Below are positions 39,911-60,582 of a stretch of DNA of 63,785 nucleotides, one piece after another (the stretch's first letter is position 1; every line of letters starts with the position of its first letter). Below the pieces are notes generated by a model that ran no database searches, was not told the origin of the DNA, and saw only the letters and a list, made by a program, of their open reading frames with translations. The translations under genes and the position numbers were made by a program. The stretch spans positions 1,083,693-1,147,477 of the forward strand of contig KZ627150.1 in the NCBI GenBank assembly GCA_002917775.1. The letters are read 5' to 3'. The stretch is from Glaciozyma antarctica PI12. Its lineage: Eukaryota > Basidiomycota > Microbotryomycetes > Kriegeriales > Camptobasidiaceae.

Positions 39911-41527
39911 CTACAGGAGCCCAACACTTCTAAGCACCTTCTCCAACTCCTCGACCCTCGTCCTCAACCCCTCATTCTCCTCTTCCAGCCCCTTGTTCGC
40001 CTCCTCCAATTCTCCCAACCTCGCCTGCTTCCTCAGCCTACTCCTCCTCGCCGCTACCGTGTTCTGCAACCTCTTCCTCTCGACAGCAGCCTTCAAATCC
40101 GCCGGGATCTCCTCGTCGTCCTCCTCACCATCCTCAGTGGGCGTCGCGGCCTTCTTGCGCTTGGCTAGAACGCGCTCGATAGGGACTGTTTTGCGCTTGC
40201 GAGATGTGGTGGAGGGGAGGACGTAAGTGCGGCTTTGGATAGGCGCGTCGACGGGGGTGAGGGAGGTGTCGCCGCTGCGAAAGCCGGTGGGTCGGGGGGT
40301 GCGGGTGGAGGGAGGAGTGGGAAGGAGGGAAGGGGTAGGAGGGAGGTAGGGGGTGGAACGGGTGCTGGGAGGAGGGTTCGGGCGAACGGAGGTCGTGGGG
40401 AGGGGAGGGGAGGGGAAGAGGGAGGGGTAGTCGGCGTCGAGGGCTGGGAGCGCCTCTTCATCGAAAGTGGGCGTTACGAGGTACTCGGTGAAGGGGCTCT
40501 CGAGATCGGACGCCCGGAGGGGAGAGTCGAGAGTCTTGTACGAAGGAGTAGGCCGTGACGTGATTTTGGGTGGAGACGAGGGTCGAAGACGACGACAACG
40601 ACGTCGCAAAGTCGTACGCATAGGTCTGTACGGATGGGTCTGGATTAGGATAGGGGAAAGGCGGTGAGATCAAAGTGCATTCCGAAGAAGTCGCCTGCAG
40701 AGAAGCCAAGGTTAGCTCTCATTCGATGCAAAATGGAGCGCAACGAACGCACCAGAGTCAAGGACCTTTCGATCTAAAGCTTGGGGTCCGACGTGCTGCT
40801 TGTACGTGTCGAACTCGAAAGAGGACGTGGCAGCCGCCGAATAGTCGAGACCGCCGTCAAGCTCGAAAGCTGTAGTAGTCTCAAACGCAAAGGGGTTGTC
40901 GGCAAGTCCGTACGGCGCGGTCGAAAGCGCTGCAGAGGGAAAGGACGAATATGGTGAACCGGTGGTAGGGGCGTGAGCACGCGTGGTGGTGCTGCTCGAG
41001 TTGGTAGAGTCGAAGGCGGCCGAGAACGGCGGCACCGTGTCGAAGAGTGAGCTGGACGTTGGAGCGACTAGTTGGGCGCCTCCACTACTCGACGACGACC
41101 TCGGGTGGCCGTGAGTGGAAAATCCATCAGGTCGGGGCATTGGGAAGGCAGAGGAGAGAAGGTCGCGGAGAGAGTCGAAGGGCTGGTCATCGGATGGGGT
41201 AGATGTGAAGGCGCTGCGTTCGGCGACGGAGACGTTCGTTAGCTGGGGATGCTGTGTGGACAAGGGGAAAGCGACGTACGTGTAGTGGGACTCTGGGATG
41301 GCGGCGGTGAACGGTTCGAGATGGGGAGCGCGGCGAGGTGTGGTTGGAATTGGTTCGTGTGCTGGCTGGTGGAGAATTGGCGAGGGTGGGGGGTGGCGGG
41401 AGTGCTTGTGAGCGCTGGCTGCAGGCTGGGGCAAACTCTGAGGTGCCTCGAAGTTCGTCGAGTGTGAAGTAGAAAGGAGAGCCGCGCGCCTGCCGTGAAG
41501 AACTTCGCTCCTCGGCGTTAGCAAGAG
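39911..41527 (-). CDS. bZIP transcription factor (GCN4-like)
   Basis: The C-terminus has a clear bZIP: basic region ERKRLQNTVAARRSRLRKQ (39990-40090) followed by a leucine zipper (LGELEEANKGLEEENEGL) up to TAG at 39911. The N-AARRSR core is that of Gcn4/ATF-type factors, which bind TGACTCA-like sites and often control amino-acid metabolism. Upstream, Ser/Thr/Pro-rich activation-type sequence is spread over further exons: 41280-41527, then from about 41215 to 40754 or so, then about 40705 downwards. The intron before the bZIP exon and the first exon are unresolved: the frame at 41280-41527 has no ATG, and the exon at 40458-40705 joins the bZIP frame only with weak splice sites. Either a small 5' exon exists or bases are missing. 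Confidence 0.75.
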
Positions 41528-41634: not shown

Positions 41635-44600
41635 TCAACGACCTCGCTCCCCAAGTCCTACCCTCCATCCCCTCCTCCCGACCCTATTCCTCACCAACTC
41701 CATCTCCACCAATACCGCCTCCTCGTCATCCCCCGTCTCCTCTCCTTCGTCGACTTTCGCACGCTTCGATCCTTCGTCGACCGAAGTCGCTACCGACGCC
41801 TCCCTCCTCCGCTTCTTGGTAGGCGCGAAAGGGTCGTCGTCGATCTTGTGGCGGTCGGAGGACGATGGGCGAGATTCGAAGGGCTTTGAGTTCGCCGAAA
41901 TGGTCGAAGGGGAGGACTCGGTCGTCGTTTCGCGATTCGGAGGTGACGGAGAATCGCAGGAGTGGGTCGACGTCGTTCCGCGCGAAGCCTCGATGATGAG
42001 TGGGCGAGAAAGATCGGTGTCGGTAGTGGCGTCCGGAGCTCCGTCGTCGTACGCCGCCAGCTCCGCCTCGAGAGAGATCGAGTAGGCCTCCGTATCCATC
42101 GCTTCGAGCTCTTCTGCGGCAGTGAGGTTGGCGGAAGAAGCGGAGGAGGCGGCGACAATTGAAGAGGCGTCGACCTGCGACGATGAGGGAGCCACGACGT
42201 CCTCCTCCGTCTTGACGACCTCGCTCGTCATCTCGGTGCAAGGTTCCTCCCTCGTCGAGAACGAATAGATGGCGTCCTTAGGATCCTCGAAATCCGCCCT
42301 TGCGTCGAGCTGCGAATCCTGCAGCGGCTCCCTGGACTTGACGACCTCGTGCTGCGAGGGCTTCGCGTCCTCCTCGACGGCGACCCCGATCTGGGAGAGA
42401 TTGTCGCAGTCGTTCCCGTGCTCGTAGATTCCGTCAACGTCCAACTGGAGGGCAGGAGGGATCGAGGGAGCGTCGACGTCGACGTCGAGATCTTCGTGCG
42501 AGGGAGCGACGCCGAGATCGTTCGAAGGCTCTTCAGCGTCGAGGTCGTGCGAAGGCGACGGCGAGCGTTGCTGCGTCGAGGTAGATGGGTTGCGATTCGT
42601 AGAGGCGTCGCGCTGGTGAGGGAGGGGGGAGGGGGATCGAGTCGGGCGACGCGAGACCGAGTGAGATCCCGAATCGTCCGTCCTCGCATGATCTCCAAAC
42701 GAATGGTCGTCCTGCTCCTCCTCGCCCTCGTACCTCTCCAACCCCTATTTCCTCTCCTCCTCGTCCTCCCGCCTACTCCCACTCTCCGACTCTCCCCTCC
42801 TTTCTCGCTCCCTCATCTCCCCCTCCATCCTCGCCATTTCCGTCTCCAACCCCTCCCTAAACCTCCCCCAAGAATGCCTGACCTCCCAGAACCCCTTGTA
42901 CTCCATCCTATGCGCCCTCCGATCGTTGTCCTTCCAATACTGCAGCATCGGCACCAACTTGTCTTCCCACGCCGCGTCGCGCTCCCTGCGACTCTCGAAC
43001 GCGACCCAGAAATGGGTGATCCCCTGCGAGACGAACGAGTTGAGACCGACCGCACTGGGGAAGTTGGCGGCGGCAAAGGCGATACGCTTAGCTGGGTCGA
43101 GGAGGGCGGTTGGGACGGTGGCGAAGGAGATGTGGAAGTGCCAGAGTGAGACGACGAGGGAGCTGGGGACGCGTTTGTGGCTTCGGAAAGAGGAGTTAAA
43201 GGGTTTGATCATCGGAAGGGGGGCAAAACAGTAGGGGACGCTGGGGCGGGATCGGGGCGGAGGGGAGAAGTCACTCGGGAGGGGAGGCGAGATGGGGAGT
43301 GGGCGGGGTGGGAGAGGGTAGGTCGCTGGCAGGTTGACGTGGGAGTGGTTGAAAGGAGCTGTGGATGTGTTGAAGTTCGAAGGGATGAAGGAGGGGGCGG
43401 GAACGTAGTGAGAGGAACGCCTCAAACGCCTCCCTCGGCGGTCCTCGCTCGTACTTTCGCGTCGTCCCTGCTCCCGACGATCCGAACGATCCTGATAGTC
43501 GAACCTCGCCTCCTCGATCCTCCGCCCACCGCCCGTTTCGATCCCACTACTGTCGTCCCTCAGCTCGTCCCTCAGCTTCGCCCACTTGTCCTCCCGAACG
43601 GACGCCGCCAAATCCCCCCACTCCCATTCAATCTTCCCTTCGCCCACCTCCGATTCCTTGAAGACGTCAAATCCCTTCCCTCGCAGGATTCGCAGCGCCC
43701 CTTCCCTCCTTCCCTGTCCCTGGAGCGCCAGATGCGCCAGGCGCGGAGCTCCGGGATCCTTCGACTCCCAGACTGCCGCGGCGTCGGGAGCCAGTTCCAG
43801 CGGGAGGAGGTCGGCGAGAGAGTGGCGAGTGTGGTAAGAGGGAGGGAGAGAGGAGAGGAGGAGAGAATGGAGAGTTATGGCGACGGGGAGAGGGAGAGGC
43901 TCTCCGAGAGGTGGACCGGAGGAGAGAGCGGAAGATGAGGGGGCGGCGGACGGGGCGGGAGAGGTGGGGCTGTGCAAGCTGCCGTGGATGATACTGGAGG
44001 GGGAGGGAAGACCCGCATCGTTCTGTTCGCGCGGTCCCGAGATCGACGAGTCGAGCCAGTCGAATCCGCGTGAGGGTCGGTCGGCGCTGATGCGCTGGTG
44101 CCAAATCGCCTCGATTCGTCCAAAGAGGGGCGAGCTGTCACGCGCTTCCTCGTCTTCGTCGTCCGGGAAGTTGGGGTGGAATTGTAGGAGGAGGAGGTCG
44201 TCCGAGGGGAGGGTGCGAAGGTGCTCTTTGGTGGTGTTGGCGGGGAAGGAGATGGGGGCGAGGTGAAAGGGCTCTCGCGTCTGTTGAGAGTTGCAGGAGA
44301 TTGAGGACGACGGCGAGTGGAGCTGCATCTCTTGTTAGCTACCTCCTTCCCTCCTTGCGCCACGGAGAGCGTGCTCACCTCGCCTCGACCACCACGCTCG
44401 CGCTTCCCTCCTAGAGCTCCGCCACCTCCATTACTCGTCCCTGAAGTCGAAAAGACCGACGAAAGACCTCCCCCAGCGCTCCGTGCAGTTCCCAAGGCGT
44501 CCCTCCCAGCTCCCCCCGGTACTAGGCGAGCCCCACCTCCCTCCTTCGCCGCCGCGTTCCGTCTGCGATGGAAAGCGATCCGCGCGTGGTGAGTGAGCTT

Positions 44601-44810
44601 GAAGGTGGTGTCCTCGTGAAACTGGACGAGGGCGAGCTCTTCAGAGGTGAGCGAGGGGATGCCGCTCAAGGACAATGGGAAGTCCAGGGGGTGCAGATGA
44701 ATGTACGCGCGGGTGCTCGCAGGCGGGTAGTGAGCTGGGAGAGGAATTGCTGATACGGGAGGTGCTCGTGGAGATGGGGAAGTGAAAGAGGCGAAGTCAA
44801 ACTCCCTCAA
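41635..44810 (-). CDS. QFH-family protein A (tandem paralog, with in-frame TAG)
   Basis: I know no named family for this protein. Exon 1 (44379-44810) holds motif copy 1 (IPSLTSEELALVQFHEDTT, then ARIAFHRRR); exon 2 starts at 44328 and opens MQLHSP, then motif copy 2 (LLLLQFHPNFPDDEDEEARD, FGRIEAIWHQRISADRP), an RRM-like segment (about 43920-43690), charged stretches, a second possible fold (LWHFHISF, FWVAFESRRERDAAWEDK) and an acidic, Ser-rich tail with PTKKRRRE. The neighbour at 45173-47669 has the same order. Two oddities occur. TAG at 42747-42745 interrupts a frame that stays open for 368 more codons and there contains the tail shared with the neighbour. No ATG exists in the exon 1 frame after an upstream TGA. 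It may be a decaying duplicate, use an unseen first exon, or be misread. Confidence 0.6.
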
Positions 44811-45172
44811 AGCTCAAAGTCGGGTCAACGAGGTTCGTGCGTGATTCGATCTGGAGGCGAAGCGCGTGCAGGCTCCTCGCGCCTGCTTTTACGCTGACCG
44901 CCCCTCTAATATTGGAGCACTGGGAAGTTAGAGAGGGCGTACAACTACGAAAGGCTGAGATCCATCGTTGCCGAAGAGAGCAGCGAGGTCTCGCCTGCGA
45001 GAATCGACGTTTTTCGAGCTTCCTGCTGGAGTGGATGCAGGTCTCCCTTCGTTGTGTACTGGATACAAGCAACGCTCTCACTTGCCACCAGCCAGTACTC
45101 AAAGCGGTCAAGCACGTATGTTTCTCATTCCGAAGCGAACTGCACACCCACTCCCTCTCAGTCCCCGCTCGC
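44811..45172. other. Short spacer between tandem paralogs
   Basis: 362 bases between QFH genes A and B, both minus. No gene recognised; it must contain the promoter of A and the 3' UTR of B. Confidence 0.4.
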
Positions 45173-47669
45173 CTACTTCTCCTCCGACCCCCTCTCCACC
45201 CCCTCCATCGCCAAATGCAGATCCCCGAAATCATCCCCGCCCCCCGCAGCCAGCCTCGACCTCTTCGCGTTCCCTCCCTCGCCATCAATCCCGACCTCGC
45301 TCCTTTCCGCACCACGTTCGCTGCCTCCGTCCTCCCTCCTCCGCTTCTTCGTCGGACCAAACACATCCTCCTCCGATGCCATCGTGTAATCGACGGATGG
45401 AGCGTTGGTGTCCGCTGGGACGTCGTTGGCGACCTTGTTCGCCTCGGTCGCCTCGATCGACTCGGTGCTGAGTGGAAAGGCGGCTTTGATCGAGATAGGG
45501 AATGCGAAGGGCAGGGGAGAGAAGTTGGAAGGTTGATCGACTCGAGACGGAAGCTCGATATCGTCCTCGACGCGAGATGTCGTTCCGGCAGCGACCTGGT
45601 CGACCGTGGCCTGCTTGCTCGGGTCCTCCGTCGTCGCCGATCCCTCCTCCGCCTTTTCGACCTTTGGCATCCTCGTCGAACCCTTCCGCGATTTCGCTCC
45701 CTCCGCAGCGTCGCCCGCCGACGTCTTGAAGCCCTTCGCACCGCTCGCCGCGCCATAATCGAGATCCATCCTCACGTCCGGGACGCGATCAGGATCGTCG
45801 TACTGCGCCGCCTCACGACGCTCCTTCGCGCGCTCCTGATCGACCGAGCTCTGGCGCGGACGAGGGAGAGCAAAGCGAGTGGCATCCCCGAGCGACTCCT
45901 TCACCTTCTCCCTCAACAACCTCTCCTCGATCCTCTCCAACGCTCCCTCCCTGAAATCCCGCACCTGCCATCCGTACCGACAAGCGTCGAACCCGATGAT
46001 GACGCCGCGTCCCCACCACTCTCCCAACAATGCGTTCCCCTTGTCCCTCACTTCGTCCCGCGCGCGCAGGTCGGGAAAGCCGATCCAGAAATGAAGGATC
46101 CCGTCGCGGGTAACGAAAGCTTTGCTACCGATCGAGTGGGGGAAAGTCGTGCGGAAGAAGGAGGTGTGCGAGATGAGGGAGAGGGCGGGGGGAGGAGAGG
46201 CGAAGGAGATGTGGAGCTCCGAGACGTGGGCTTGGAGGGAGGGAGAGACGCGGTCGTTTAGATGGCGGAAGTTTGGCGGGATGAAGGTAGAGAGAGGGGG
46301 AGGAGGAGGGCGCCAGGTGGGAGGGTTGCGAGGCGGAGAGAAATCGTAGGAGCCTGTGCGGTGGTCCCTGACTGGCTTGAACGCGGGCGGGCTCGTCGAA
46401 GGGGGGTGCGAGTAGCAGGCGGAGGGAGTTGGAGTCGCGGGAATGGAGAGCTGGGAGTGGGAAGTCGGGGTTTCGTCGCAAGAGCGATGAGTCGAGCGAG
46501 AGTGGCGATTCCTTCGCTCGTCGTCCTTGCGATCCTGGCGGCTCCTGCGATCCTCCTCTCGCGAACGATCCCGGCGAGCTTGAGGTTCGTCCTCGTGCGA
46601 GCGATGAGTTCGGTCACTCTTGTCGTTCCCGCGCGACCGGTCTTGACCGTCCCTCGACGCATCCTTGCTCTTCCTCTCCTCGCACCTCCCCCACTCCTCC
46701 TCCCTCACCTCGCTCCTCAAATCCTCCCAAACCCATTTGATCCTCTCCTCATCCTCCTTCTTCTCCCTCACAGCCTCCACTTTCTCAGCCTCCAGCACCT
46801 CGAGCGCGTCGTCCCTCCTCCTCCTCCTCTGGTACGCGATGTGCGCCTTGCGCGCTCCGACCTTGGAATCCCATTTCCAGATCGCCGTCGCGTCGGGGAC
46901 GAGGTCCGGAGGGAGGTGAAGAATGGCGTGGAGCTGGTCGGAAGTGATGGAGGAGGGGGTGAGGCCGGAGATGCGGATAGAGTGAAGAGTGCGTGCGACG
47001 GAGGAAGGCAAGGGACCGGAGATGGCGGTAGAGGGGGAGACTTCGCTCTGCGGCGTCGGGAGGTCCTGCTTCGGCTCGGGCGAGGCTCGGGCGAGGGACG
47101 GGTCGACCCAGCGGAGTCCGAGGGGCCTGTCGGCGCTGATCCGCTGGTGCCAAACTGCCTCGATTCGGCCGAAGAGGGGAGAGCTGTCCCGGGCGGACTC
47201 GTCGGCGTCGTCGGGAAAGTCGGGGTGGAATTGGAGGAGGAGTAGCTCGTCGGAGGGGAGGGTCTTGAGGTGGTTCTTGGTGAGGTTCGAGGGGAAGGTG
47301 AGGGGGGAGAGGTGAAACGGCACGAGTGGCGGGACGGGAGAGGTCGAAGGAGGTGGAGTGTGGAGCTGCTGCAAATCGTTTAGCTAGCCCTCCTGTTCCT
47401 CCAACGTCGAGAGCGAGACTGACCTCCTGCAGCCGAGACCTCTGCTTGCGCAGCTCGTCGTCCCGTCGGCGGTGGAAGACGATCCGCGCGCGGTTGGTGA
47501 GCTTGAAGGTGGTTTCCTCGTGGAACTGGACGAGAGCGAGTTCTTCAGAGGAGAGCGAGGGGATGCCGTCGAGGGATAGTGGGAAGGTAAGTGGGTGCAG
47601 GTGGATGAGAGCGCGAAGCGACGGCGAAGGCGAGTTCGGGTCGTCTGGCAGCTGAGGGGGTGCGGCCAT
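45173..47669 (-). CDS. QFH-family protein B (intact member)
   Basis: Exons 47424-47669 and 45173-47368 give an intact 813-aa protein. The ATG at 47669 starts MAAPPQLPDDPNSPSPSLRA. Motif copy 1 (IPSLSSEELALVQFHEETT, ARIVFHRRR) ends near the intron; copy 2 follows (LPSDELLLLQFHPDF, PLFGRIEAVWHQRISADRP). Residues about 160-230 look like a divergent RRM: IRISGLTPSSITSDQLHAIL, then ATAIWKWDSK, then KAHIAYQRRRRRDDALEVL. A long Arg/Asp/Ser-rich region (45 basic/acidic repeats of the RSREEDRR kind), a second globular segment (VSELHISFASPPPA, ILHFWIGFPDLRARDEV) and an acidic tail with PTKKRRRED follow. The RD-rich linker and RRM-like fold hint at RNA work in the nucleus; this is inference. It is the best reference for the broken or odd members A and the LOTUS gene. 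Confidence 0.75.
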
Positions 47670-48440
47670 GCTCTAGGGTGGGCGGGTGTTGGAAGTCGCG
47701 AGCAGCGTTGAGGGGAGAAGAGAGAGAGCGCAGCGGAGCTGAGCGGAGACCTCGCACCCAGGGGAGGGACGAGCGTGATTCATCTTGCAGCGCTCCAGCG
47801 TTCCGTTGGTGTCCCAGAGGAGTGAGTAACGGCGTGGATTGCAAGGCTGTGACTACCAGGAACGGGTCTGCTGTCGAAGGGAGAGAAGGGCCAGACACGA
47901 GGGAAGAGGAGCTGCCTCAGCCTCAGGTCCCTCCGGCGAGGAAGCGAACGAGGTCGACTGGGCGGGAAGTCCCTCTACGCCTATACAGAGCGCATACGCA
48001 GGTCAGCTCACTATCCCCTTCCCCCGCAAGACGAGACCTGCCATACCTTCAAGCTGAGACCGAGTCCCCCCTCCTCCTCTCCCAACCGCCCTTCTCCCTC
48101 TTCACGCCAGTCAATCGCCACGCCACCAGGTGGTCCCTCCCTTTCCTGTTGTGCAGCTGTAGGTTCGAAAGGGGAGTCGTTGGTCGAAGGTATCGACTGA
48201 GGGAGTCGCCTGAGTGGGGTCGGGCCGGCAAAAGGTGCGGCAGCTGCGTACTGAGTCGGCTGAACGGCGTTGAGCGGTCTCACCGGTGCTCAACGCCGGT
48301 CTCTTTGAGCGGTGCAATAACGAGGACGTGGCAGAGGGCCAACGAACGACGCCAAGGCTGTTCCCGTCATCAATCAGGCGCCGCTCTTCTTTCGTCCTTC
48401 GTCCTCTCCCTCCGCCTCGCAAAAAAGTTACCAGAACAGC
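47670..48440. other. Divergent intergenic region, no gene recognised
   Basis: Shared upstream region of QFH gene B (minus) and the acetyltransferase gene (plus). No coding or RNA gene recognised. Confidence 0.4.
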
Positions 48441-49661
48441 ATGTCCGACTCCCAGCTCGCCGAACAAGCTCTCACTGAGCGCGCAAAGATGCTCGCAGGC
48501 CTGGCGTGCGTCTCCCTCCTCTGAACCCCACACTTCCTCTCCGCGGCTGATGACAGAAGTTTCTGCTAGGTACGATGCGATGAGTGATCAGGGACTGCTC
48601 GAGGGACGTCTGAGGGCAAGGAAGTGCCTCAAGGTGCGTTGCTCTGCGGCTCAGGAAGTGCGGGGTAGGAGCTGACCCCTCACAGGCGTACAACGTACCT
48701 CCCTTCCCTCTCCTCTCCTCTCCTCTGCGAAAGCTAACACGCAGCATAGGACTACCCTGCTCCGTTGTACAAGGAGGGAATGGCTGCTGCAGACTACTTT
48801 GGCCCCGACGAGCGGTTCCAGATCCTAGCGGACTTGTTTGAGATCCCTCTGGAGAAGGCGAAGCTGCTCGCGATTGAGCCCCCATTCTGGTGCGACTATG
48901 GAACGAACATCAAGTTCAAGGGAGAGGTGCGTTTGCCGGCATTGCTGAGGGAAAGGAGGCTGATACGTGTTTGCAGTTCTACTGCAACTTCAACACGACC
49001 GTACGGATCCACCTTCCAGTCCCGTTGCTCCTAACCTAACGCAGCCACTCGATTCCAGATCTTAGGTACGTCGTCACCACCACATTTCTACCCGCGCTAA
49101 CCTCCAGCCCAGATTGCGCCGATGTGACTTTCGGCGAGCGAGCCATGCTCGCTCCCGGTGTCCAAGTACGTCCTCCCTTCCTCCCTCTCGCACCACTGAC
49201 CCCCGCACAGATCTACAGCGCGACCCACTCTGTCGACGTGGCTGAGCGTCGCGCAGGCCTCGAGCGCGCCTACCCCGTCACTGTGCGTCGCTCCCTCCTT
49301 CCGCTATACGACGTACTGACCTCCCCTCTAGATCGGCGACGACGCACGTCCCTCATCTCCTCCTTCTGAGCTCCACTAAATATCTTGCAGTGCTGGATCG
49401 GCGGAAACGTCAGCATCGTCGGACCCTGCACAATCGGCAACGGTTCGTCCCCTCTCCCTCCCTCTGCGGTCCCACTAAATTCGTTCAAACAGGATGCACC
49501 GTCGCCGCCGGCGCCGTCGTTAGTCCCCCCCTCTACTTCCCGTGACGAGACAGTACTGATACACAGAGCAGGTCAAGGGAGTCTTCCCTGATAATGTCGT
49601 GATTGGTGGGATTCCAGCGAGGATTTTGAAGACGTTGGTACCGCCGCCGGAGGAGAAGTGA
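48441..49661 (+). CDS. Maltose/galactoside O-acetyltransferase-like protein, left-handed beta-helix
   Basis: These enzymes move acetyl from acetyl-CoA to sugars; the physiological substrate in fungi is unclear. Twelve exons join in one exact frame of 216 aa: 48441-48505, 48570-48633, 48686-48694, 48750-48926, 48977-49000, 49059-49065, 49113-49165, 49211-49282, 49332-49343, 49391-49442, 49493-49518, 49572-49661. The N-terminal MAT domain (ERAKMLAGLAYDAMSD, RARKCLKAYNDYP) leads to PFWCDYGTNIKFKGEFYCNF, then the hexapeptide-repeat helix: TILDCADVTFGERAMLAPGV, IYSATHSVDV with the catalytic His, DDCWIGGNVSIVGPCTIGNG and VFPDNVVIGGIPARIL. Exons of 7, 9, 12 and 24 nt are required to keep the conserved sequence, and the intron after the 12-nt exon starts with GC (GCACGT). 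Confidence 0.93.
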
Positions 49662-50156
49662 GCGGTAGAACGAAGCGAGAGATAGAAACTATGGACGAGA
49701 TTAGAGTGCGTAGACTGCGAGCGGGGGTTGGGTGAGCTGGTGTCGTGCTCTCTTCGCTTGGTCTCTCTCACGCGACGTCGAGAAGTTGAGGATCTGAGCA
49801 GGGAACGTGCGATCATTAAAGACGCTGCGGAAGTGCTGGACCGCAGGAAGCATGGAGAGAAGCAGGCACGGAGCAGAAAAGGCGAGCCAGCTTCGACTCC
49901 AGTTCCCAGACTCGCTCCCCTACACTGCGCCCGAACGATGTGGTGGTGTGTTGCGTTGTAAACTAGGTACACATTACTGGAGTGTAGCTGCTGGGGAAGG
50001 GGAGAAATTCGACGAGTGAAGGCGGGATGGGTGATAGGGACGGCGAGTCGAGCGAGTTGATGCCGAGGAGCTCAAGAGTAACGCCACTCCAGATCTGTGC
50101 TTAGGCACCGTCAGCACCAAACAAACACCAGCGAAGCAAAAGGCAGGAACGCACTC
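49662..50156. other. Convergent intergenic region, no gene recognised
   Basis: Between the acetyltransferase stop and the 3' end of the minus-strand F-box-like gene. Nothing recognised. Confidence 0.4.
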
Positions 50157-51757
50157 TCAATCCTCGTAATCCCTTTTCGCAACCCGCAGCCCCTCAACCT
50201 GCGCCAACAGCTGCCTCATCCCCGCCCGATCCTCCACCACCTTCAACCTCCTCTTCATCTCCCTCCCACACTCCAGCGCCTACTCCACCTCCCGCTCCAC
50301 CTCCTCCCCATCTCCCGCACCCCGGAGCCGCGCGTGATCATTCCCCAACTCGCTGTGCGGCGCCCGGCGACGTTCGTACGCTATTACAAGTTGGTCGCAC
50401 TGTCGTACCAGCGCCAATTGCGCAGGTTCGCGCGCGAAAGGCTTGGGTGAGACGAGAGTGAGTTGACGGAGTGTGCTCGAGTGGTCGGCGACGAAATTGC
50501 CGAGGCTGTTGAGGAGGTTTGAGAGAAAGGGGATGGTGAGGGGATAGAAAGCGTAAATGGTTAGGTGGATGGTGAGCGAGGAGATGGGGGAATGGAGGAA
50601 GAAGTTGAGGAAAGGGGTGAGGTTGGCGTCGATTCCGCGAAGGTCGAGAGAGGAGAGGCGAAGGAAGTGCTGGGGAGGAGTCGAGTGCCGGCTCGGGGCC
50701 GGTGGAAGGTTGAGGTGGAGTACGGTAAGACGTTCGAGGGTTGTCGAGAAGGACGCGAAAGAGGCCAGGTCGGTGAAGGTGAGCTGTGTGCCGGCGCGGT
50801 CCCATGTGAGGTCGGTGATGGGTGATTTCCAGTCGTCTTTCCAAGCCCACGAATCGACGAGTTGGAGTGGCGGAAGTTGATTGGCGTCGGAAGGGGTGGA
50901 AGGTTCGCAGAAGGTGATTGAGAGATGTTGAAGGAGAGTGCAGCCAGCCAACGCGACTCGTAGCTCGTCTGATTCAGTCGAGCTCTCCAAAGGCATGTCG
51001 AAGATGGCGATCGGGGAGACCCCAGCGAAAAGGCGTTTGGCGTCTGCGATTTGAACTGGAGAGAAGTTGTGGAAAATAATGCTGGAGAGAGGGAGCTTCT
51101 GCAGGCACATTTCAAAGAAAGCGCGCCTCGTGTCTCGAAGGTAGTAGAGATCGGCGATAGGCGAGCTGAGTATAGCCGAGGTGAGGTTGGGAAGATGGGG
51201 GAGGATGCTCAGGGCGCGACAGATCTCGAGCTCGCGAGCTTGACGACTGTGCACACACTCGTCCCCTCGCAGTCCTTGGTCGTCCGCAAATTCGATCGAG
51301 GTGAATAATCCAGCTCGGTGCGGAAGGATGCGATTCTGGAAGATGATTTCGCGCCGCACTCGGCACGACTTGAGGTGCTGAGGATGATTCGTCAGTCCGC
51401 CTGCCGACGAGGAGAGAGAGAGGCCTTGCGTACCTTGAAAAGGTACGGTGCCGCCAGGAAGTTGAATTCCCAGCTGACCTTGAACAAAGCCGATACTCCG
51501 CGCCCGCCGTAATACAGCGCCCTTCCCGTCCTCGAGTACTCCTCATCCTCAGGGTCGCTCGCCGAGTCCGACGATTCGGGTTCGGATCCTGAGTATTCGA
51601 AAGGAGGTCGAGCACGCTTCGGAAGCCGTTCCACTCGCGCTTGGTCTTGTAGATTGACTTGTTTGAGGATCAGAGCCTTGACTTGGCGAGGGAGGGTCGA
51701 GAGGGAGGCGCGAGGAGGAAGAGGGCCCGTCGTGGGTGATGGAGCAGCGGAGGACAT
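50157..51757 (-). CDS. F-box-like protein with leucine-rich C-terminal half, paralog 1
   Basis: Exons 51434-51757 and from 51377 downwards. The N-terminal RASLSTLPRQVKALILKQVN looks like a degenerate F-box as found in large basidiomycete families; the rest alternates LxxLxL-type segments (LSILPHLPNLTSAIL, LQHLSITF, LERLTVLHLNL, LSSLDLRGID), suggesting leucine-rich repeats. F-box proteins recruit substrates to SCF ubiquitin ligases; here that is inference. A TAG at 50280-50282 ends a 473-aa frame, but the same frame continues to TGA at 50157-50159, and the extension (GMRQLLAQVEGLRVAKRDYE) is conserved in the paralog at 59017-60582 after its own TAG. The segment before the TAG could also be an intron (GTAATAG...GAGTAG) with a poor acceptor. 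Confidence 0.7.
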
Positions 51758-52140
51758 GGAGCGTGTTCGCAGCTACTCTGCGCAAGGCGGGACGTCAGTT
51801 TGGTTCTCTACGCCTTCGCTGTATCGTCTTTTCCGCTCCCCAAAGCCAGAGGGGAGTCGGCAGGTCGTCCGACGCGACGTGGCTCCTCCTCCTCCTCCAG
51901 CGGAACGCCGTCACGCCTGAGTTCGCCGTCGACGTAGCTGGTCTCTCCTAATTACTTACCGCTGAGTTACGAAAGAGCAGAGTTTGAGCGCAGAGGAGAG
52001 AGTCGCCCTGTTCGAAGAGAGCTCACCAAGAGGGCCAAGTAGTAGTTACTATCAACTTGGCTCAGCTTCTCTCCTCCCACTGCTCCCCTTGAGCCGCCTC
52101 ACTTCACCACCTCCCGCCCTCCCCTCCTCCTCCCGTAGCG
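51758..52140. promoter_or_regulatory. Divergent promoter region, F-box-like gene / NDUFS1
   Basis: 383 bases separate two divergent ATGs. The half next to NDUFS1 is pyrimidine-rich (TTCTCTCCTCCCACTGCTCC), as is common before fungal housekeeping starts. No defined site was recognised. Confidence 0.4.
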
Positions 52141-55100
52141 ATGCTTCGTACCCGCCTCGCTCGCCTGCCGTCCCGACCTCTCTCCCTCTCCTCATCCCGA
52201 CCCTTCGCTTCGACCTCTCACCGCGCCGCAGAAATCCAACTCGAGGTCGATGGAATCCCCGTCTCAATCGAGCAGGGCAGCTCCATCATCCAGGCGTGCG
52301 AGAAGGCTGGTACGTTCAGCTCGGTCAACCTGGGGTGAACGCGTTGAGGAGGAGCTGGAGGAGGAGAGGGAAGCTGCTTTCTAGCGAAGCCTATTGGCCC
52401 GCTTGGAGGTGTCGGCGCGGGGGAACGAGTCGAGCTGTCGCCTCGGTTGAGCTCAGCATAGATTGGCAGATACCCTGGGATGATTCTTGGGAGAAGCTGT
52501 CACTCTCATGTGGATCTCAACTGCTCGGCGCATCGCGTTCTCGCTCGGCGTGTGCGGGCTGGGACGGAGGAGGGCCGGTGGGGTCAACTGGATTGTGGAG
52601 CGGGTTAGCAGTAGGCCATCGTTTGGAGAGGCTTGTTGGACTTTGGGGGAAACTCTCAGTGGAGCTTGGGCGGGACGAGTGACGAGGGAGGACAGCGTTG
52701 GTCTTCGGCGGGGCAGTGGCAGCTTGCTCGAGCTGTCGTGCCTGTCGATGAAGGGACGTCGATTCGCCCTCGTCTCACCGCACTGTGCAGCACGCTCCAG
52801 ATTGCACAGCACCAGACCCCGCCCTCCTCGGCCCAAGCATCGAACTTGCCGAGTTGCTCTCCGGCGCGACTGGTGCCTGCGGCCGCTGAGGGGGAGATTT
52901 CCAGGCTTGATGAGCTGCTCTACAGGAGCAGGATGGACTCCTTTGCGCTTATGTCAATACCTCGAACATCGTCTGATTCAGCCACTGACATGTCTCCCCA
53001 CCCGCAGGCGCGACGGTCCCTCGTTTCTGCTACCACGACCGACTAAACATCGCTGGTAACTGCCGGTGAGTTGGCGTCTTTCAGAGCTCAGGAGCTGCCA
53101 TGAAGCTGACGAGCGACTGCAGAATGTGCCTCGTCGAAGTCACCCCCGGTCCTCCCAAGCCCCAAGCCTCTTGCGCCATGCCCGCCATGTTCGTCCCAGG
53201 TCCTCCTTCCACCTCCACCCCCGGCTAATCACGACGAACGCAGGCCCGGCCAGAAGATCAAGACCAACACTCCTCTCATCCACAAGGCCCGCGAAGGCGT
53301 CATGGAGTTCCTCCTCGCCAACCACCCTCTCGACTGCCCCGTCTGCGACCAAGGTGGCGAATGCGACCTGCAGGACCAATCGATGCGCTACGGATCGGAC
53401 CGCTCTCGTTTCCACGAGATTACGGGCAAGCGCGCGACGGAGGACAAGGACTTTGGACCGCTCGTCAAGACGGTCATGACGAGGTGCATTCACTGCACGC
53501 GTTGCGTTAGGTTCGCGAACGAGATTGCCGGGATCGACGATTTGGGAACGAGTGGACGAGGGAACGACATGCAGATCGGGACGTACATCGAGAAGACGCT
53601 CAACTCGGAGATGTCGGGCAACATTATCGACCTCTGCCCCGTCGGAGCTCTCACCTCCAAGCCCTACGCGTTCGAGGCGCGTCCTTGGGAGCTCAAGAAC
53701 ACCGAGTCGATCGACGTCCTGGACGCCGTCGGATCCAACATTCGCATCGACTCTCGCGGCCTCATGCGTCATCCAGCATCCAGCCCCGCCTCAACGAAGA
53801 TATCAACGAGGAGTGGATCTCGGACAAGACGCGGTTCGCCTACGACGGTCTCAAGACCCAGCGCCTTACGACTCCCCTCGTCCGCGAAGGCGACCGCTTC
53901 GTCCCCGCTTCGTGGCCTCAAGCCCTCGCCGCCATCAAGGCCGGCCTTGAGAGCTCGGGCGCGCAGGGGAACGAGATTCAGGCGATCGCAGGACACCTCG
54001 CCGACGCGGAGAGTCTCGTCGCCCTCAAGGACCTCGTCAACACGCTCGGATCCGATAACACGGTTCTCGACCAGCCGCTCGGCGAGTTTGCGCCCGCGCA
54101 CGGAGTCGACTTCCGCTCCAACTATGCGTTCAACTCGACTCTCGCTGGAGCCGAGGAGGCGGATCGACTCGTCCTCATTGGCACGAACCCGAGGCACGAG
54201 GCGGCGATTCTCAACGCGCGGTTACGTAAGGCGTACCTCGCTGGAGGAATGGACGTCGCGCTCGTTGGGGAGAAGTTTGATTCGACGTTCGGGTACGAGC
54301 ACCTCGGAACGGATCTCGCGAGCGTCAAGGAGTTGTTCAAGAGTGGGAGCAAGTGGGCGAACGAGCTCAAGGGCGCCAAGAAGCCCATGATTGTCGTCGG
54401 GAGCGCGTTGGCGGAGCACAAGGATGGCGCGGCCGTCTTTGCTGAGGTCGCAAAGTTCGTCGAGGCGAACAAGGCGACGTTCGTTACCGATGAGTGGACT
54501 GGGTACAACGTTCTTCAGCGGGTGCGTTCCCTTCCTTCTTCCTTTCCGACGGCGCAGCAGCTGACTTTGTTCCTCGATGATACAGGCCGCATCCCGAACA
54601 GCAGCCTACGATATCGGCTTCACCCCCTCCTCCTCCGCCTCCTCGACGACCGCCAAGTTCGTCTACCTCCTCAACGCCGACGACTTCTCCCCCTCCCAGA
54701 TCCCCCGCGACGCGTTCGTCGTCTACCAAGGCCACCACGGCGACGTCGGAGCGCAGTACGCCGACGTCTGCCTCCCCGGTTCGGCCTACACGGAGAAGAG
54801 CACGACCTGGGTCAACACCGAGGGTCGGACTCAGCTCGGTCGTGCGGCCGTCCCCCCGCCCGGCGCGGCGAGGGAGGACTGGAAGATCGTTCGTGCGCTC
54901 AGTGAGGTCCTTGGAGCCAAGTTGGAGTACGACGATACGGCGGCGATGAGGGATCGCATGTGGGACGTTAGTCCTACGTTGGCGAGGTACGATGTCGTCG
55001 AGAAGCCCTCGGCGGTCTTGGTGGGATTGCAGAGCTTGAGGAAGACCGCCGAGAGGGTCGCCAAGGCTGCGAGGAAGGGAGGGAACGAGGGAGCGTTCAA

Positions 55101-55296
55101 GAAGCCTATCGCCAACTTCTACCAGTCGGATCCGATCTCGAGGTCGTCCGTCACGATGGCCAAGTGCACTGTGCGTTTTTCCCTCTCTCGTTGTGCGACA
55201 GTGGCTGACGTTGGGGATTCGCAGCGCGCGTTTGTGGACGAGTACTACCCGAAGGGAGAGCGCGAGCAGGACCTCCCTCTCGCTTCGCACGCATAG
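52141..55296 (+). CDS. NDUFS1: NADH dehydrogenase (complex I) 75-kDa subunit, NDUFS1/NuoG
   Basis: The iron-sulphur subunit passes electrons through the peripheral arm of complex I in the mitochondrial matrix. Exons: 52141-52309, 53008-53065, 53123-53188, 53244-54521, 54586-55170, 55225-55296. The Arg/Ser-rich start ([16 protein letters not shown]) is a mitochondrial presequence. Cluster-binding motifs are visible: [19 protein letters not shown] (2Fe-2S), [18 protein letters not shown], and [16 protein letters not shown] with [15 protein letters not shown] (4Fe-4S). The C-terminus ends LPLASHA-TAG, about 740 aa, family-normal. Intron 1 is 698 nt, more than ten times the local norm. Around 53760-53790 the frame slips between IDSRGLMR and [13 protein letters not shown] at a 7-base tandem repeat (CATCCAGCATCCAG); the exon sum is two bases over a multiple of three. 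Confidence 0.95.
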
Positions 55297-55674
55297 AGGG
55301 TGAGGGACGCGGTATCGAGATGTAATCAGACGCGGTTGAATCAGGATGCTATTGCTGTGGGTGCGAGGGGGTACGGAGAGAGGGAGCTACTGCTGTTCTG
55401 AATTCGGTTGGAGCTGCGAACGCGAGGAGAACGTTAATCGTCGGAGCGGAAGAGAGCGAAAGGACGTACCGTGCGTGCGTTCGCTCCCTCGTCAGGCGCC
55501 GAACCGCTCGAGAAGCCCAGGGGACGCTTCGCTCGTCCGAGCGTGTTCGGGGCGAAAGCTCGAAAGCTCTCGATGACGAGTCCCATTCTCGAAGCTCGAG
55601 TCCGTCCGATCGGCGTGCGGCAACTGAGCTCGACCGTTCGTTGTGCTCGTCGAGAGGGAGCCGTTCGAGGAGAG
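55297..55674. other. Convergent spacer, no gene recognised
   Basis: Between the NDUFS1 stop and the annotated end of the LOTUS/QFH gene. The frame of that gene stays open past its TAG (55677-55675) for about 60 codons, but I see nothing conserved there. Confidence 0.35.
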
Positions 55675-58641
55675 CTACGACGACCAGGCGACTGCTCCAT
55701 CGTTCCTCGTCCCGCCGGCGCGCGAGGCTTCCAAGGTCGCCCACGAAGGTCCCTCAGACGACGACGCGGTCGACGCGGCTCGGGCACGTCCTTTGATCGA
55801 TCCGAATCCGTTCTTGAAGGGCTTAGGCGCTGGAGGAGGTTGCGAGGTCGAGGATGTCGATGGACTGGGACCGTTGGACCAGGTCTTCGACGGCGTGAAC
55901 CTCGAGTCAGACGGCGTGGAAGGCGTGAGTCGAGGAGGATTGAACGAAGATGACGACGGGGTGGCGAGTGCAGAACTGGTCCTGCGCGCGTCGAAGGTCT
56001 CGCTTGTTGTCCGTGCTCGCTTGGCGGGTTCCGATCCCTCGACGTCTCCGGCGCTCGTTGTTCGCGATCGCGCTGGAGATGCTCGAACGTCGTTGGTAGC
56101 AGGCGTGCTAGGCAACCAGGGGAAGCTGGCTTGCGCAGGGCGACTTGCCGGCGCAGGGCGTTCTCCGTTCGATGGCGCTCGGCTCACGAGTCGCTCGTCG
56201 CTAGCGGCGTTCAGGTGCGAGCGTCGGCCTGCGTAGAGAGGTACTGGGGCGGACGTAGGTGCTGCTGAAGGAGGCGCAAAGTCTGCGGTAGCGACGTCGA
56301 CTCGGCTCCTCTTGAGGTCCGACCACTCGCCGCTTGACGAAGGCGCTTCGACGGCTCCCCACTCGACTCGACGCTTCCTTCCTGCTTCGACAGGTACGGG
56401 TGGTGGCTCGTTCGGTCGCCTCGGCTCGACGGGGTCAAAGCTCCTCTGCGCGAAGGGATCGAAGCTCCTCCGTTCGGCGACGGGCTCGAAGCCCCTCCGC
56501 TCCGCGACGAAACCAAAGCTCCCACGTTCGGTCGGCAGAGAGGCCTTCCTCATGCTCGCGACGACCGCGGCCCTCTTCGTCTCCATCGCCAGTTCCGAAG
56601 TCTTTCGATCCGCATCCTTTCTCCGCCCCGCTTCCATCTCGCTCGCCCTCCTCTCCCGCGCGCTCGCCTCCCTCCTCTCCTTCTCGCTCCAGTCGATCCA
56701 CATCTTCTTCCTCAATTCGCTCCTCACGTCTCCCCACTCGACCTTGACTTCCCCGACCGCTCGATCGTCCGTAATGATCCTCCACCTCTTCTCAAACTCC
56801 CTCCTCGCTTCCTCCGCAGCTCTCCTCGAGCGGTACGCGACGTTGGCTGAGCGCGCACCCGAGGGCGAGGCGAGCTTGTAGAGAATCGTACACTCTGGCG
56901 CGAGGGATTGCGTTGGAGGACGTTGGCGACGTGGGAGCGCGAGGTGATGGAGAGGGGAAGGTTGGCGAGGAAGAAGGTCGTGGGGGTGTTGAGGAGGTCA
57001 GAGGGAAGGACGTCGTTGAGAGGTGCGGTGGACGAGAGCGGAGGAGAGGGGGCGCGAGCGCGGCTCATGGCAGGTGGGGAGGAGCGTCGAGGAGCGTCGT
57101 TGTGTCGTGGAGGAGATTGCTGGCGGAGAGGAGAGGGTCGACGGTAGCGTTCTTTCGGGCGAGAAGAGGTACTGGGATAGGTCGGGGCGGGTAGGTTGGG
57201 GTAGACCGGTGCGCGAGGTGCTGGACGAGGTTGAGTTGGCCGAGGCGAAGCTGAACGTCGCGGTTCCGGTGCCTGAGCTTGTGCGGTAGCGAGCGAAGCA
57301 GCGACCACTGCTGGCTCGGCATTCTGACGTTCCCAGTCTCTTGAGCGGCGGGTCCAGAAAATCGTTTCAGCCTCGGCGTTGAGCGCGCTGTCCTTGTCGA
57401 GCTGAACAGCTTCGTGGAACTGAACGAGAGCGAACTGAGCTGAGCTGAGCGCTTTGAGGTCGGAGAGGGAGAAGGAGAGGTCGGAGGAGTGGAAGTCGTC
57501 TTGAGGGGCTGCTGCTGAAGGAGGAGTAGGGGACCGCGGAGGCGGGGTCGACTGCCGCGATCCTGAATCAAGCGTGAGAAGATAGGAGAGTTCGTGATCC
57601 TGCACGGTGAAGGTAATCAGTGCGTGCGCAAGCTGACGACCCCCGAAGACCAACTCACGTTAATGCTCGCTGTCTCGTCCAAGGCAATCCAATCCTTTCC
57701 GCCCTCGTCACCTCTCCCGAGCATAACTAATCCTAGATCCTGCGCTGCCAGCGCGTAATCCTTGAACGCGTCGAAGCCGACGTCGCGATACAGAGTCGGG
57801 TAGGCCAGCTTGAGGCCAGCGCCGACTTGCGAACGAAGCGGACGAGACTCGCCCTCCTGATGTCGCAGGGCTAGGAAGTCGAGGAGAGGGCGAAATTGGG
57901 ACGGGGAATTCGAGTGGGGCAGCTGCTGAGGAGCAAAGGTGTGACTGCCGAGGGAAGGGATGGGCGCAGGCAAGGCAGATTGCGGCTGAGGACCGCAAGT
58001 GTTAGTTGCGACGCATCCACGTAGTCGAGGCGACGTACAGTAACAGGAAGAGAGATCCAATCTCGCCCGGCAACATCTCCACGCCCTTGATCGACAACGC
58101 CACGGTCGTACGCCCTCTGAGAGTAGGCAGCAAACGAGCTCACGCCAGCATCTCGGTAGGCGTTGGGGTACCGCTGCTTGCAGGAGCTTCCGATTGCACT
58201 CTTGAGTGGCCTCGGTATCCCTGTTCGTGCACCCTCTTCGAGGATGTTGACGAGGGGTTGGAAGACGGGGTCAACGCGCCGAGCTTGAGGTCGACTGGGG
58301 AGTTGGTGGGAAGGCGCGGGAACGGCGGAGGAAGGTGATCTGGTGCGGGTCGCTAGAGTCTTCTCCATATCCTCCCAGAAGCCCTTCGGGACGACCTCAC
58401 CGACCTGGGCTGGGACCGGGACGGCGCTCGTCGAGGCGGTGGGGTCCCTCCTGCTGCCCTCCTTCGCTGCTGCGCGTCGCTTCCACTATAGAGCTCGGGC
58501 GTTGGCAGTGATGGCCGTAGTCGATTCGTAGTTGTACTGAGTGAGGGCGAGCTGAGTGGACGAGAGCTGGGCGAGGTCCTCAAGGGCGAAGTCCAGCTCT
58601 GCAAGATGGAGAGAATCGCTCGCCGGGCTTGAGTCGGCCAT
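55675..58641 (-). CDS. QFH-family protein with two LOTUS/OST-HTH-like domains and an RRM-like segment
   Basis: Exons 58039-58641, 57659-57985 and 55675-57599 link what first looks like two genes; both introns are ordinary (53 and 59 nt) and phase 0. Order: ATG at 58641; QFH motif 1 (LSSTQLALTQYNYESTTA, 58474-58599); GFWEDMEKT; repeat 1 (VFQPLVNILEE, YPNAYRDAGVSSFAAYS, GRDWISL; 58042-58266); repeat 2 (FRPLLDFLALR, YPTLYRDVGFDAFKDYA, GKDWIAL; 57670-57898); QFH motif 2 (LSSAQFALVQFHEAVQLD); an RRM-like part (FFLANLPLSITSRSHVANVL, ARSANVAYRSRRAAEEA); an Arg/Glu helix; a Ser/Pro-rich tail. The two repeats match the LOTUS (OST-HTH) pattern known from RNA-regulating proteins. Oddities: TAG at 58488-58486 inside motif 1, flanked by homologous sequence, and a one-base frame slip at 56899-56912. 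RNA regulation is inferred. Confidence 0.65.
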
Positions 58642-59016
58642 GCCAGAAGCAAGTAACGTGGTGACCGTGGAGAGAGTAGGTCGAGGGTGGTTGCCGGAGG
58701 CTGGTGGAAGAGGAGAAAGGGCAGAGGAGACGAGTCTCTCACTCTTGTCCTCCTGCTTTCGCCTCGAACGTCTCGGACAGCTCTCCGCGCTCTGCCAGCG
58801 AGTGCCAGGTACTTGTAAGTACTGTCGTACCTCTTCAGGGAGCACTCGCCCAGCGCAACTTCTTGACGCCGTCGCCTTTCGTTCACGAGGTGCCTCCCAC
58901 ATCCATCGACGGTGACAGTGGCACGAGGAGTCCTGCGGGCACGTCAAACGAGTCTGTAATAGTAAGAGCTGTAGCTGACTAGCTCTAACCTCCTCAGGAA
59001 CGCGCGCAACGACACG
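58642..59016. other. Divergent promoter region, LOTUS/QFH gene and F-box-like paralog 2
   Basis: 375 bases between divergent ATGs (58641 minus, 59017 plus). No gene recognised. Confidence 0.4.
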
Positions 59017-60582
59017 ATGTCTTCGCAACTACGTCCCCCTCACCGCGCTTCCCTCTCGACCCTCCCTCGCGAAGTCAAGGCCCTAATCGTCGAGCAAGTG
59101 CATCTTCAGGATGTGACCAACATCCGCAGCAGGTCTTCTAGGCGCAAGCATCTGCAACTGCGGGAGGACTCGGACGTCGAGGACGACCCTTCGCGTCCCG
59201 AGTTGGACTTTGGAGAGTTCCCCGGAACGCTTAGGGAACACTACTGGGGAGGTATCGGAGGTACTAGTCTGTCCCAGACCAATTGGTAGTTCAACTCTCT
59301 TGCTGCGCCGTTCATATTTCAGGTGAGCACCGAGTGGGAGGAACGCGAACGTCCGTACTGACGAACGCCCTCAAGCACCTCGAGTCGAATCGCGTTCGCT
59401 ATCGCATCTTTCAAGAGCGAATTCTTCCTCGCAGAGGCCACCTCTTCACGACGCTCGAGTTCAAGGATGGTCCGAGGAGGGCGGAGGACTCTCTCAAGAT
59501 GCGCGAACTCGAGATCTCCCGAACGCTGGCGGTGCTGTCGGAGCTCCCCAACCTCGCTTCCGTTATTCTCGGCAGTTGCGTTGCGGACGTCTACTACTCC
59601 GGATCGCCCAAACGAGCTCAATTCGAAGGACGCCTGGCGAAGCTCCGCTTGCTGGACCTCACCTTCCGCAACTTCACCGCTCGGCAAGTCGCAGAAGCCA
59701 AGGCGCTCTTCCTCTCCGCCCACTCGATCAGCATCTTCGACATTCAGGTTACGGGATCCATCGTCCTTCGGGATACCCTCGCCTCCTGCACCAGCCTTCA
59801 ACGCGTCGCCCTCGCCTTCGCAGCCCCGACTCGCGCAGCTGGGAGGCAGCCCCTTCCTCGAGCGGATTCGGGCCTCTGGTCCAATAAGCCGCAGGAATGG
59901 AGGTCAGCGTTAACTCACCTTACGCTCGTGGTCGACGCCTTCTCCTTTCCGCGACCTCACCTTCGTCTCCCTCTTCTCCAAGTCCCTCGAGCACCTCAGC
60001 ATTCGTACCGTCGGCAGCCGCCTCTCGTCCACGACCTCAAATCCTATCTACCATTCCGACTTCCCAAGACTTACTACTCTCACCATCGACGACCCCGTCA
60101 GCGACTCCCCCTTCCTCACTTCCTTCCTCCGATCCCCCATCTCGCACCTCTCCATCTCCGCCCCCTCCACCAGCTCACCTCACGTCATGAATTTCCTCAC
60201 GAACCATTGTCTCACTCTCCGCCACCTCGTCTTCACGTCGTCGCAAAACCAGTCATTCCCGTACAAATCGGACGACGACAAGCTTTCAGCGCGCTGCGCC
60301 ACTCTCGGGATCGAGTACCTCCGACAGCTCTCTAGCCCAAGGGTAAATGGCTACGAAGGAATGGAGGTGGAGAACTGGCTGGCTTTCGAGCGGTTCGACG
60401 AGGACGGGGAGGAGGACAGGGAGTAGTATGTTGCTGAGGTCGCGAGAGAGGTTGAGAGGACGTTGGCGTGGGGAGTCGCACATGCGCAGAGGATGATGCT
60501 GCTCAAGGACGATTTGGGGATGAGGCAGTTGCTCTTGGTGCTTGGTGGGCTGCGGGTTGCGAGGAGGGATTATGAGAGGTGA
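59017..60582 (+). pseudogene. F-box-like protein, paralog 2 (disrupted)
   Basis: Paralog of the gene at 50157-51757, in opposite orientation. Exon 1 (59017-59322) opens MSSQLRPPHRASLSTLPREV and ends NSLAAPFIFQ; exon 2 (from 59376) begins HLESNRVRYRIFQERILPRR, the same intron position as in paralog 1. Leucine-rich segments follow (LAVLSELPNLASVILGS, LTHLTLVVDAFSF, LEHLSIRTVG). Three irregularities: TAG at 59287-59289, where paralog 1 has a Glu codon (WEFNFLAAP versus W-stop-FNSLAAP); a one-base slip at 59943-59950 (TCCTTTCC) before RDLTFVSLFSKSL; and TAG at 60424-60426 followed by the conserved GMRQLLLVLGGLRVARRDYE up to TGA at 60580-60582. It is either a young pseudogene or affected by draft errors. 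Confidence 0.6.

Follow-up and report, generated by a model that had tools for sequence, protein, structure and literature searches.

Here, we ask whether a motif that recurs in three genes of a 63,785-nucleotide stretch of DNA from Glaciozyma antarctica PI12 marks a peculiarity of one locus or a larger protein family, and what the proteins that carry it might do. This stretch, the window, is part of a contig of 1,386,270 bases (C5) in a genome of 20 Mb and 18 contigs and has a G+C content of 60%. The three genes, here called A, B, and L, all lie on the minus strand, as do all of their features described below. A preliminary description made from the window alone had proposed that they form a local family with two motif copies per gene, a degenerate RRM, and, in L, LOTUS-like domains, and had suggested RNA binding from these parts.

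All six proposed motif copies were located at the sites given for them. Those of gene A lie at 44541-44711 in exon 1 and 44074-44277 at the start of exon 2, separated by an intron at about 44378-44323; those of gene B at 47445-47615 in exon 1 and 47123-47326; and those of gene L at 58456-58620 and 57327-57497. The two copies in A and the second copy in L score 80.2, 69.3, and 70.7 bits, respectively, against a motif profile that all three helped to train, while the first copy of L is broken by an in-frame TAG (58488-58486) where several other copies have an aromatic residue. Aligned, the six copies share seven invariant columns. The motif spans ~50 residues and consists of a short apolar start, a helix with the pattern SSxQLAxxxFH, a loop, and a helix that ends in WxRRR. 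Thus, the core is shared as proposed; the fixed spacing of about 10 residues to the basic end is not, because the gap varies: in both A and B, the second copy has 10 additional residues between QFHP and the final helix.

The preliminary description knew of no named family for the motif, and we found none in Pfam or the PDB. No family reached the Pfam cut-off at the motif in the members scanned, and a sequence search of the PDB with the motif gave zero matches at E≤10. Across the exons of A, B, and L, Pfam at E≤10 returned the sub-threshold matches CDC45 (E 4.7), DUF5647 (E 0.17), and DUF2397 (E 0.22), all in frames of B. In an AlphaFold2 model of B, the motif forms helices at residues 31-47 and 57-79 with a loop between them, the last helix being basic; the pLDDT of these blocks is 54-65, so that the motif is predicted with low confidence to be helical, and the model is too weak to define its fold. 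Loop-separated helices with a basic end would also fit a divergent version of a known small helical fold of the helix-extended-loop-helix or SAP/LEM-like kind, or a part of a known domain, whose target would be DNA, chromatin, or some nuclear protein. Two sub-threshold matches overlap the motif and would agree with such an origin, i.e. DUF5647 in B (12.1 versus 27 bits) and Med26_M in the gene at locus L007 (E 0.027; 15 versus 27 bits). However, these are different families, neither recurs in the other members scanned, and the empty PDB search speaks against a known fold as well. We consider this explanation improbable. Because the motif is common to ~12 genes and its Pfam matches are sub-threshold only, we regard it as a candidate new domain.

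The family is not local. By profile and BLAST searches, about 12 genes in this genome carry the motif, and they are partly clustered and spread over several contigs. The profile detects 15 copies in 11 genes, and the twelfth gene (L009) was found by BLAST alone (E 4e-5). A first profile built from 8 copies recovered 5 copies outside its training set at 18-40 bits. With a second profile, built from 13 copies, the 15 copies score 31-80 bits, including the two that did not train it (L012, 30.7 bits; L013, 50.8 bits). Reversed reading frames, taken from the window and from loci L001-L013, scored 6.8 bits at most, and chance is therefore excluded as the source of the motif matches. In a genome-wide search, the motif consensus gave 13 matches, the weakest with E 0.007. 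Loci L001-L013 were chosen for their BLAST matches in whole-genome searches with single proteins and are not an unbiased scan; six of the 13 (L002, L003, L004, L009, L010, and L011) have no profile match. A search with gene B in viral and prokaryote contig collections, to which yeasts do not belong, found no relative. All gene models other than that of B were read by eye from open frames.

In six of these genes, all on the same contig, the motif is joined to RRM-like domains, i.e. in A, B, and L, in gene D ~210 kb from the window (L001), and in genes E and F ~14-17 kb beyond it (L008). The remaining members lie on contigs C1 (L006, L007, L012, and L013) and C3 (L005 and L009). We saw no RRM in the parts of these genes that were read, nor did Pfam detect one in L005, L006, L007, L012, or L013, which argues against a tie between RNA and the motif as such. 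The C1 members share one C-terminal part and the C3 members a different one. Each of the four C1 genes has a single motif copy and resembles the others in its later part, and three of them begin with MAHxWL; apparently, they form a subfamily of their own in which no RRM is visible.

Genes A and B adjoin each other and are paralogues (35% identity over 536 columns between their second exons; E 5e-73). Both encode, in this order, two motif copies, an RRM-like domain, a charged or low-complexity linker, a second RRM-like fold, and a basic tail. Gene B has two clean exons (47424-47669, with the first motif copy, and 45173-47368) that encode 813 amino acids. Its first RRM-like domain, identified by profile-profile comparison and a PDB profile search, is at 46691-47011; an RD/RE/RS-rich linker read from the translation follows at 46481-46690, the second ferredoxin/RRM-like domain at 45923-46249 (residues 383-462 in the AlphaFold2 model), and the tail KKRRRE...KRSRL at 45251-45355. 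By eye, this tail looks like a nuclear localization signal. In gene A, the first RRM-like domain (43582-43896), recognized from the comparison with B and by profile-profile alignment, has a W-x-W-G-D-L strand 4, and the second (42817-43170) is paralogous to 46249-45923 of B. The KKRRRE tail is shared between A and B (19 of 42 positions identical; E 0.002). No ATG lies upstream of the motif in the frame of exon 1 of A, and exon 2 ends at an in-frame TAG (42747-42745). Beyond this stop, the same frame is open for 369 codons down to 41635 (41635-42747), and in every interval it has the highest codon-use score of the three frames, with B being part of the training set.

The other members vary this theme. 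Gene D encodes two motif copies, an RRM-like domain, a WW-like domain, and an RGG tail; the WW-like match covers profile positions 1-31 of 31 with E 8e-4 and reaches 19.8 bits against a Pfam gathering score of 26.9. Gene E has one motif followed by two RRM-like domains, and gene F a motif, a possible second copy, an RE/RS-rich stretch, and an RRM-like domain; at 9.4 bits and E 4.8, the possible second copy in F is no better than chance. Gene L encodes a motif, two LOTUS-like domains, the second motif copy, and an RRM-like domain.

What the preliminary description took for a degenerate RRM and a separate W-x-D motif behind it is indeed RRM-like; the two are one domain, in which these motifs are strands 3 and 4. 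In profile-profile comparison, the RRM-like domains of A, B, and D together with the second one of E match, in full register, a set of 12 RRMs from this genome that exceed the Pfam cut-off (96% probability; E 4.4e-9); the partial segment of L was omitted. Reversed, the alignment gave 0.1%, and against LOTUS 0.0%, and the best of 40 column shuffles had E 0.011. All eight RRM-like domains jointly match the RRMs at 95.7%. Because smaller groups reach only 23-70% (A and B, 32%; D, 34%; F, 24%; the first domain of E, 23%; the second, 70%), the signal is carried by the group and above all by E. Homology of the first RRM-like domain to RRMs is therefore established for the group. The Pfam gathering score of RRM_1 was reached by none of the members scanned, and a genome-wide RRM_1 search placed all of its 68 matches outside A, B, L, D, E, and F; the best match among the members scanned is that of E, its sole Pfam match (E 0.064; 13.6 versus 20.7 bits). 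In the PDB, a profile of the first domain, built with A, B, D, and a portion of L, found seven chains, six of which belong to three RRM proteins, CstF64, MIP6, and PUB1 (E 0.2-0.73). Used singly, the second RRM-like domain of E gave one chance match, and the RRM-like domain of F seven weak ones, the best to the RNA-binding protein HRB1 (E 0.19) and the others mostly unrelated.

No profile match to RRMs was obtained for the second domain shared by A and B (1.1%). Structure prediction of B gave it the strand and helix order beta-alpha-beta-beta-alpha-beta, and to this extent agrees with the RRM-like model that had been anticipated. However, the mean pLDDT of the whole model is 51 and its pTM 0.25, the first RRM-like domain is left without a defined fold, and within the second domain the blocks have pLDDT values of 54-78 but of 44 and 28 where they hold the last strand. 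A Foldseek search with the whole model returned 1257 matches and no E value below 0.001; those at the top are mostly what we take to be ferredoxin-like folds, and RRMs (Fox1, MEC-8, and Hsh49) appear from rank 5 with E 0.05-0.08 beside other folds. For this domain, the RRM-like fold is thus a prediction from the model of B.

Certain positions of RNP1 and RNP2 in RRMs are usually aromatic, and these residues usually stack on RNA. By eye, they are mostly absent from the first domain of A and B. For this reason, a serious rival to a role in RNA binding is that the RRM-like domains have lost it and serve protein-protein contacts, as in UHMs and other atypical RRMs, which would make the family one of protein scaffolds. 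The sub-threshold RRM_1 scores and the members on C1 and C3 that have the motif without a visible RRM are consistent with such a loss. On the other hand, the second RNP1 position, also judged by eye, has kept an aromatic residue in D, E, and F and, within A and B, in their second domain, and the RGG, RS/RE, and LOTUS-like partners of the domains point to RNA. On balance, we hold this rival to be somewhat unlikely. As for the RNA binding originally suggested, the RRM-like and LOTUS-like parts are there; the binding itself continues to be inferred, and the first domain of A and B mostly lacks the residues that would stack on RNA.

In gene L, two LOTUS-like domains lie between the motif copies, at 58042-58263 and 57674-57895. 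The second was modeled as a winged helix. The best model has a pLDDT of 79 and the other four 56-63, all from a two-sequence alignment. Among 609 matches of a structure search with this model, none below E 0.001, the LOTUS domain of Oskar ranks 4 and 11; at rank 4 (5cd7; TMt 0.63; E 0.18), it stands amid many unrelated winged helices. The LOTUS-like assignment is thus partly supported, by a modeled fold of the right type and by Oskar among the matches; Pfam OST-HTH (PF12872) at E≤10 has no match in L or in the rest of the genome. A PDB sequence search with the LOTUS profile gave one chance match (E 5.2). Together, the Pfam results suggest that the OST-HTH and RRM_1 models may miss divergent fungal forms. 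Related LOTUS-like sequences occur at L003 and, as a pair, at L002. In the gene at L002, the second of the pair contains an in-frame TAG (L002:4243-4245) at a position where the LOTUS-like copies of L have a tyrosine. The RRM-like domain of L is split over two frames, with a first part (FFLANL...) at 56913-56987 and the remainder (...VEWGDVRSEL) at 56698-56904, which matches B (E 1e-8); the frame changes between 56912 and 56905.

In total, the family has five apparent breaks: the TAG in A, the TAG and the frame change in L, and one frame change each in D and E, both near a motif. Two readings of these were rejected. The stops of A and L probably are not introns, as no acceptable splice pair was found by eye, and TAG probably is not reassigned in this genome: only one of the 68 RRM matches has a stop, which is a TGA, four stretches read from CCT matches have their stops in or beside apparent introns, and a short join proved to be an intron. 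Of 816 stops with open frames on either side, a scan singled out two, each a TGA, that have coding-like codons before and after them; it is a weak test because it is too strict, and it flagged neither A nor L. Similar breaks occur in other genes. The NDUFS1-like complex I gene of the window (~52141-55296) changes frame inside Fer4_NDSU1, with profile positions 1-23 in one frame and 29-51 in another, and an HSP70-family gene by Pfam (G000:C9:178937-180514; L026), which we take to be Hsp110-like, has an apparent frame change with no room for an intron. Because these two genes are broken likewise, some of the breaks in A, L, D, and E probably are assembly errors.

Alternatively, the family may be fast-evolving and partly decaying, with A, L, D, and E being pseudogenes or copies broken in this strain, and B and a few others working. 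The count of five apparent breaks in the family versus two in ~18 comparison genes is in its favor. The comparison genes are NDUFS1, seven genes of the HSP70 family, and ten that we grouped as CCT/Cpn60, all read at suspicious joins alone. Among 27 HSP70 and 38 CCT matches, two joins and four stop-bearing stretches were read, of which introns explain all but that of the gene on C9; the remaining matches with stops were judged by length alone. The family accounts for 37% of the codons and for five of the seven breaks (binomial 0.068, a rough value, since codon numbers were estimated for its six genes and for NDUFS1). Breaks may thus be commoner in this family, but 0.068 is not decisive. Decay is also at odds with the coding-like stretch of A past its stop and with the breaks in NDUFS1 and the Hsp110-like gene, which make errors in the assembly probable, and no member has the many stops of ordinary decay. 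We consider decay rather unlikely.

Other genes of the window were noted in passing. A gene at 35485-35640 (-) has an RRM_1 match above the Pfam cut-off (E 1.2e-8), and one at 39911-40669 (-) encodes a bZIP transcription factor (bZIP_1, E 1.3e-10). A pair of similar genes at 50280-51772 (-) and 58975-60426 (+) flanks NDUFS1 and L; both open with SLSTLPR(E/Q)VKALI and by eye may be F-box-like, while a Pfam search of their open frames (50280-51542 and 59268-60335) was empty at E≤0.01.

Based on these observations, we suggest, with a probability of roughly 50%, that A, B, and L are members of a diversified set of adaptors, probably nuclear ones, in which the motifs dock a partner and the RNA-type parts contact RNA or RNPs. 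In the six members on C5, one or two motif copies, mostly near the N-terminus, precede a single divergent RRM-fold domain or a pair of them, and many of these proteins also have a charged or low-complexity stretch; LOTUS-like domains are added in L and a WW-like domain and RGG tail in D. The helical motifs may dock a common protein partner or one another, while the RRM, LOTUS, RGG, and RS/RE parts would contact RNA or RNP partners, comparable to multi-domain adaptors in splicing or mRNA decay. The basic tails and the RD/RE/RS stretches would agree with this reading. As read from their sequences, the proteins probably act on RNA, the case for RNA binding being weak for A and B. RNA-type domains adjoin the motif in half of the ~12 genes. 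More boldly, the motif could be an undescribed eukaryotic docking domain that founded a fungal RNP system, in which about a dozen adaptors, six of them on one contig, plug RRM, LOTUS, WW-RGG, and RS parts into one hub; we hold this to be unlikely.

Compared with the RRM family (PF00076), the first RRM-like domain is alike in its full-register profile match, and the second domain of B has the same order of strands and helices in the model. The differences are the scores below the Pfam cut-off, the RNP aromatics mostly missing from the first domain of A and B, and a conserved W-x-W-x-D-[LV] extension after strand 4. With the LOTUS/OST-HTH domains (PF12872) of Oskar, TDRD5/7, and MARF1, the second LOTUS-like domain of L shares the modeled winged helix; however, L fails the Pfam model, and other winged helices rank equally high or higher. 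A literature search for LOTUS domain, fungal, and basidiomycete in combination found no paper. The available parts of two reports leave open which role LOTUS domains have outside animals (PMC5458760, PMC6168497), and a fungal LOTUS-like protein with an RRM would bear on this question. Two animal systems invite comparison with L. Caenorhabditis elegans MIP-1 and MIP-2 are reported to have two LOTUS domains in one protein (PMC8331183), as L has two LOTUS-like ones. Similarly, MARF1 (Limkain b1) combines an RRM with several LOTUS domains in one protein (PMC6168497), as L combines its RRM-like and LOTUS-like domains. In MARF1, the RRM precedes the tandem LOTUS domains, whereas in L the LOTUS-like pair precedes the RRM-like domain, and L, in contrast to MARF1, bears the unnamed motif twice.
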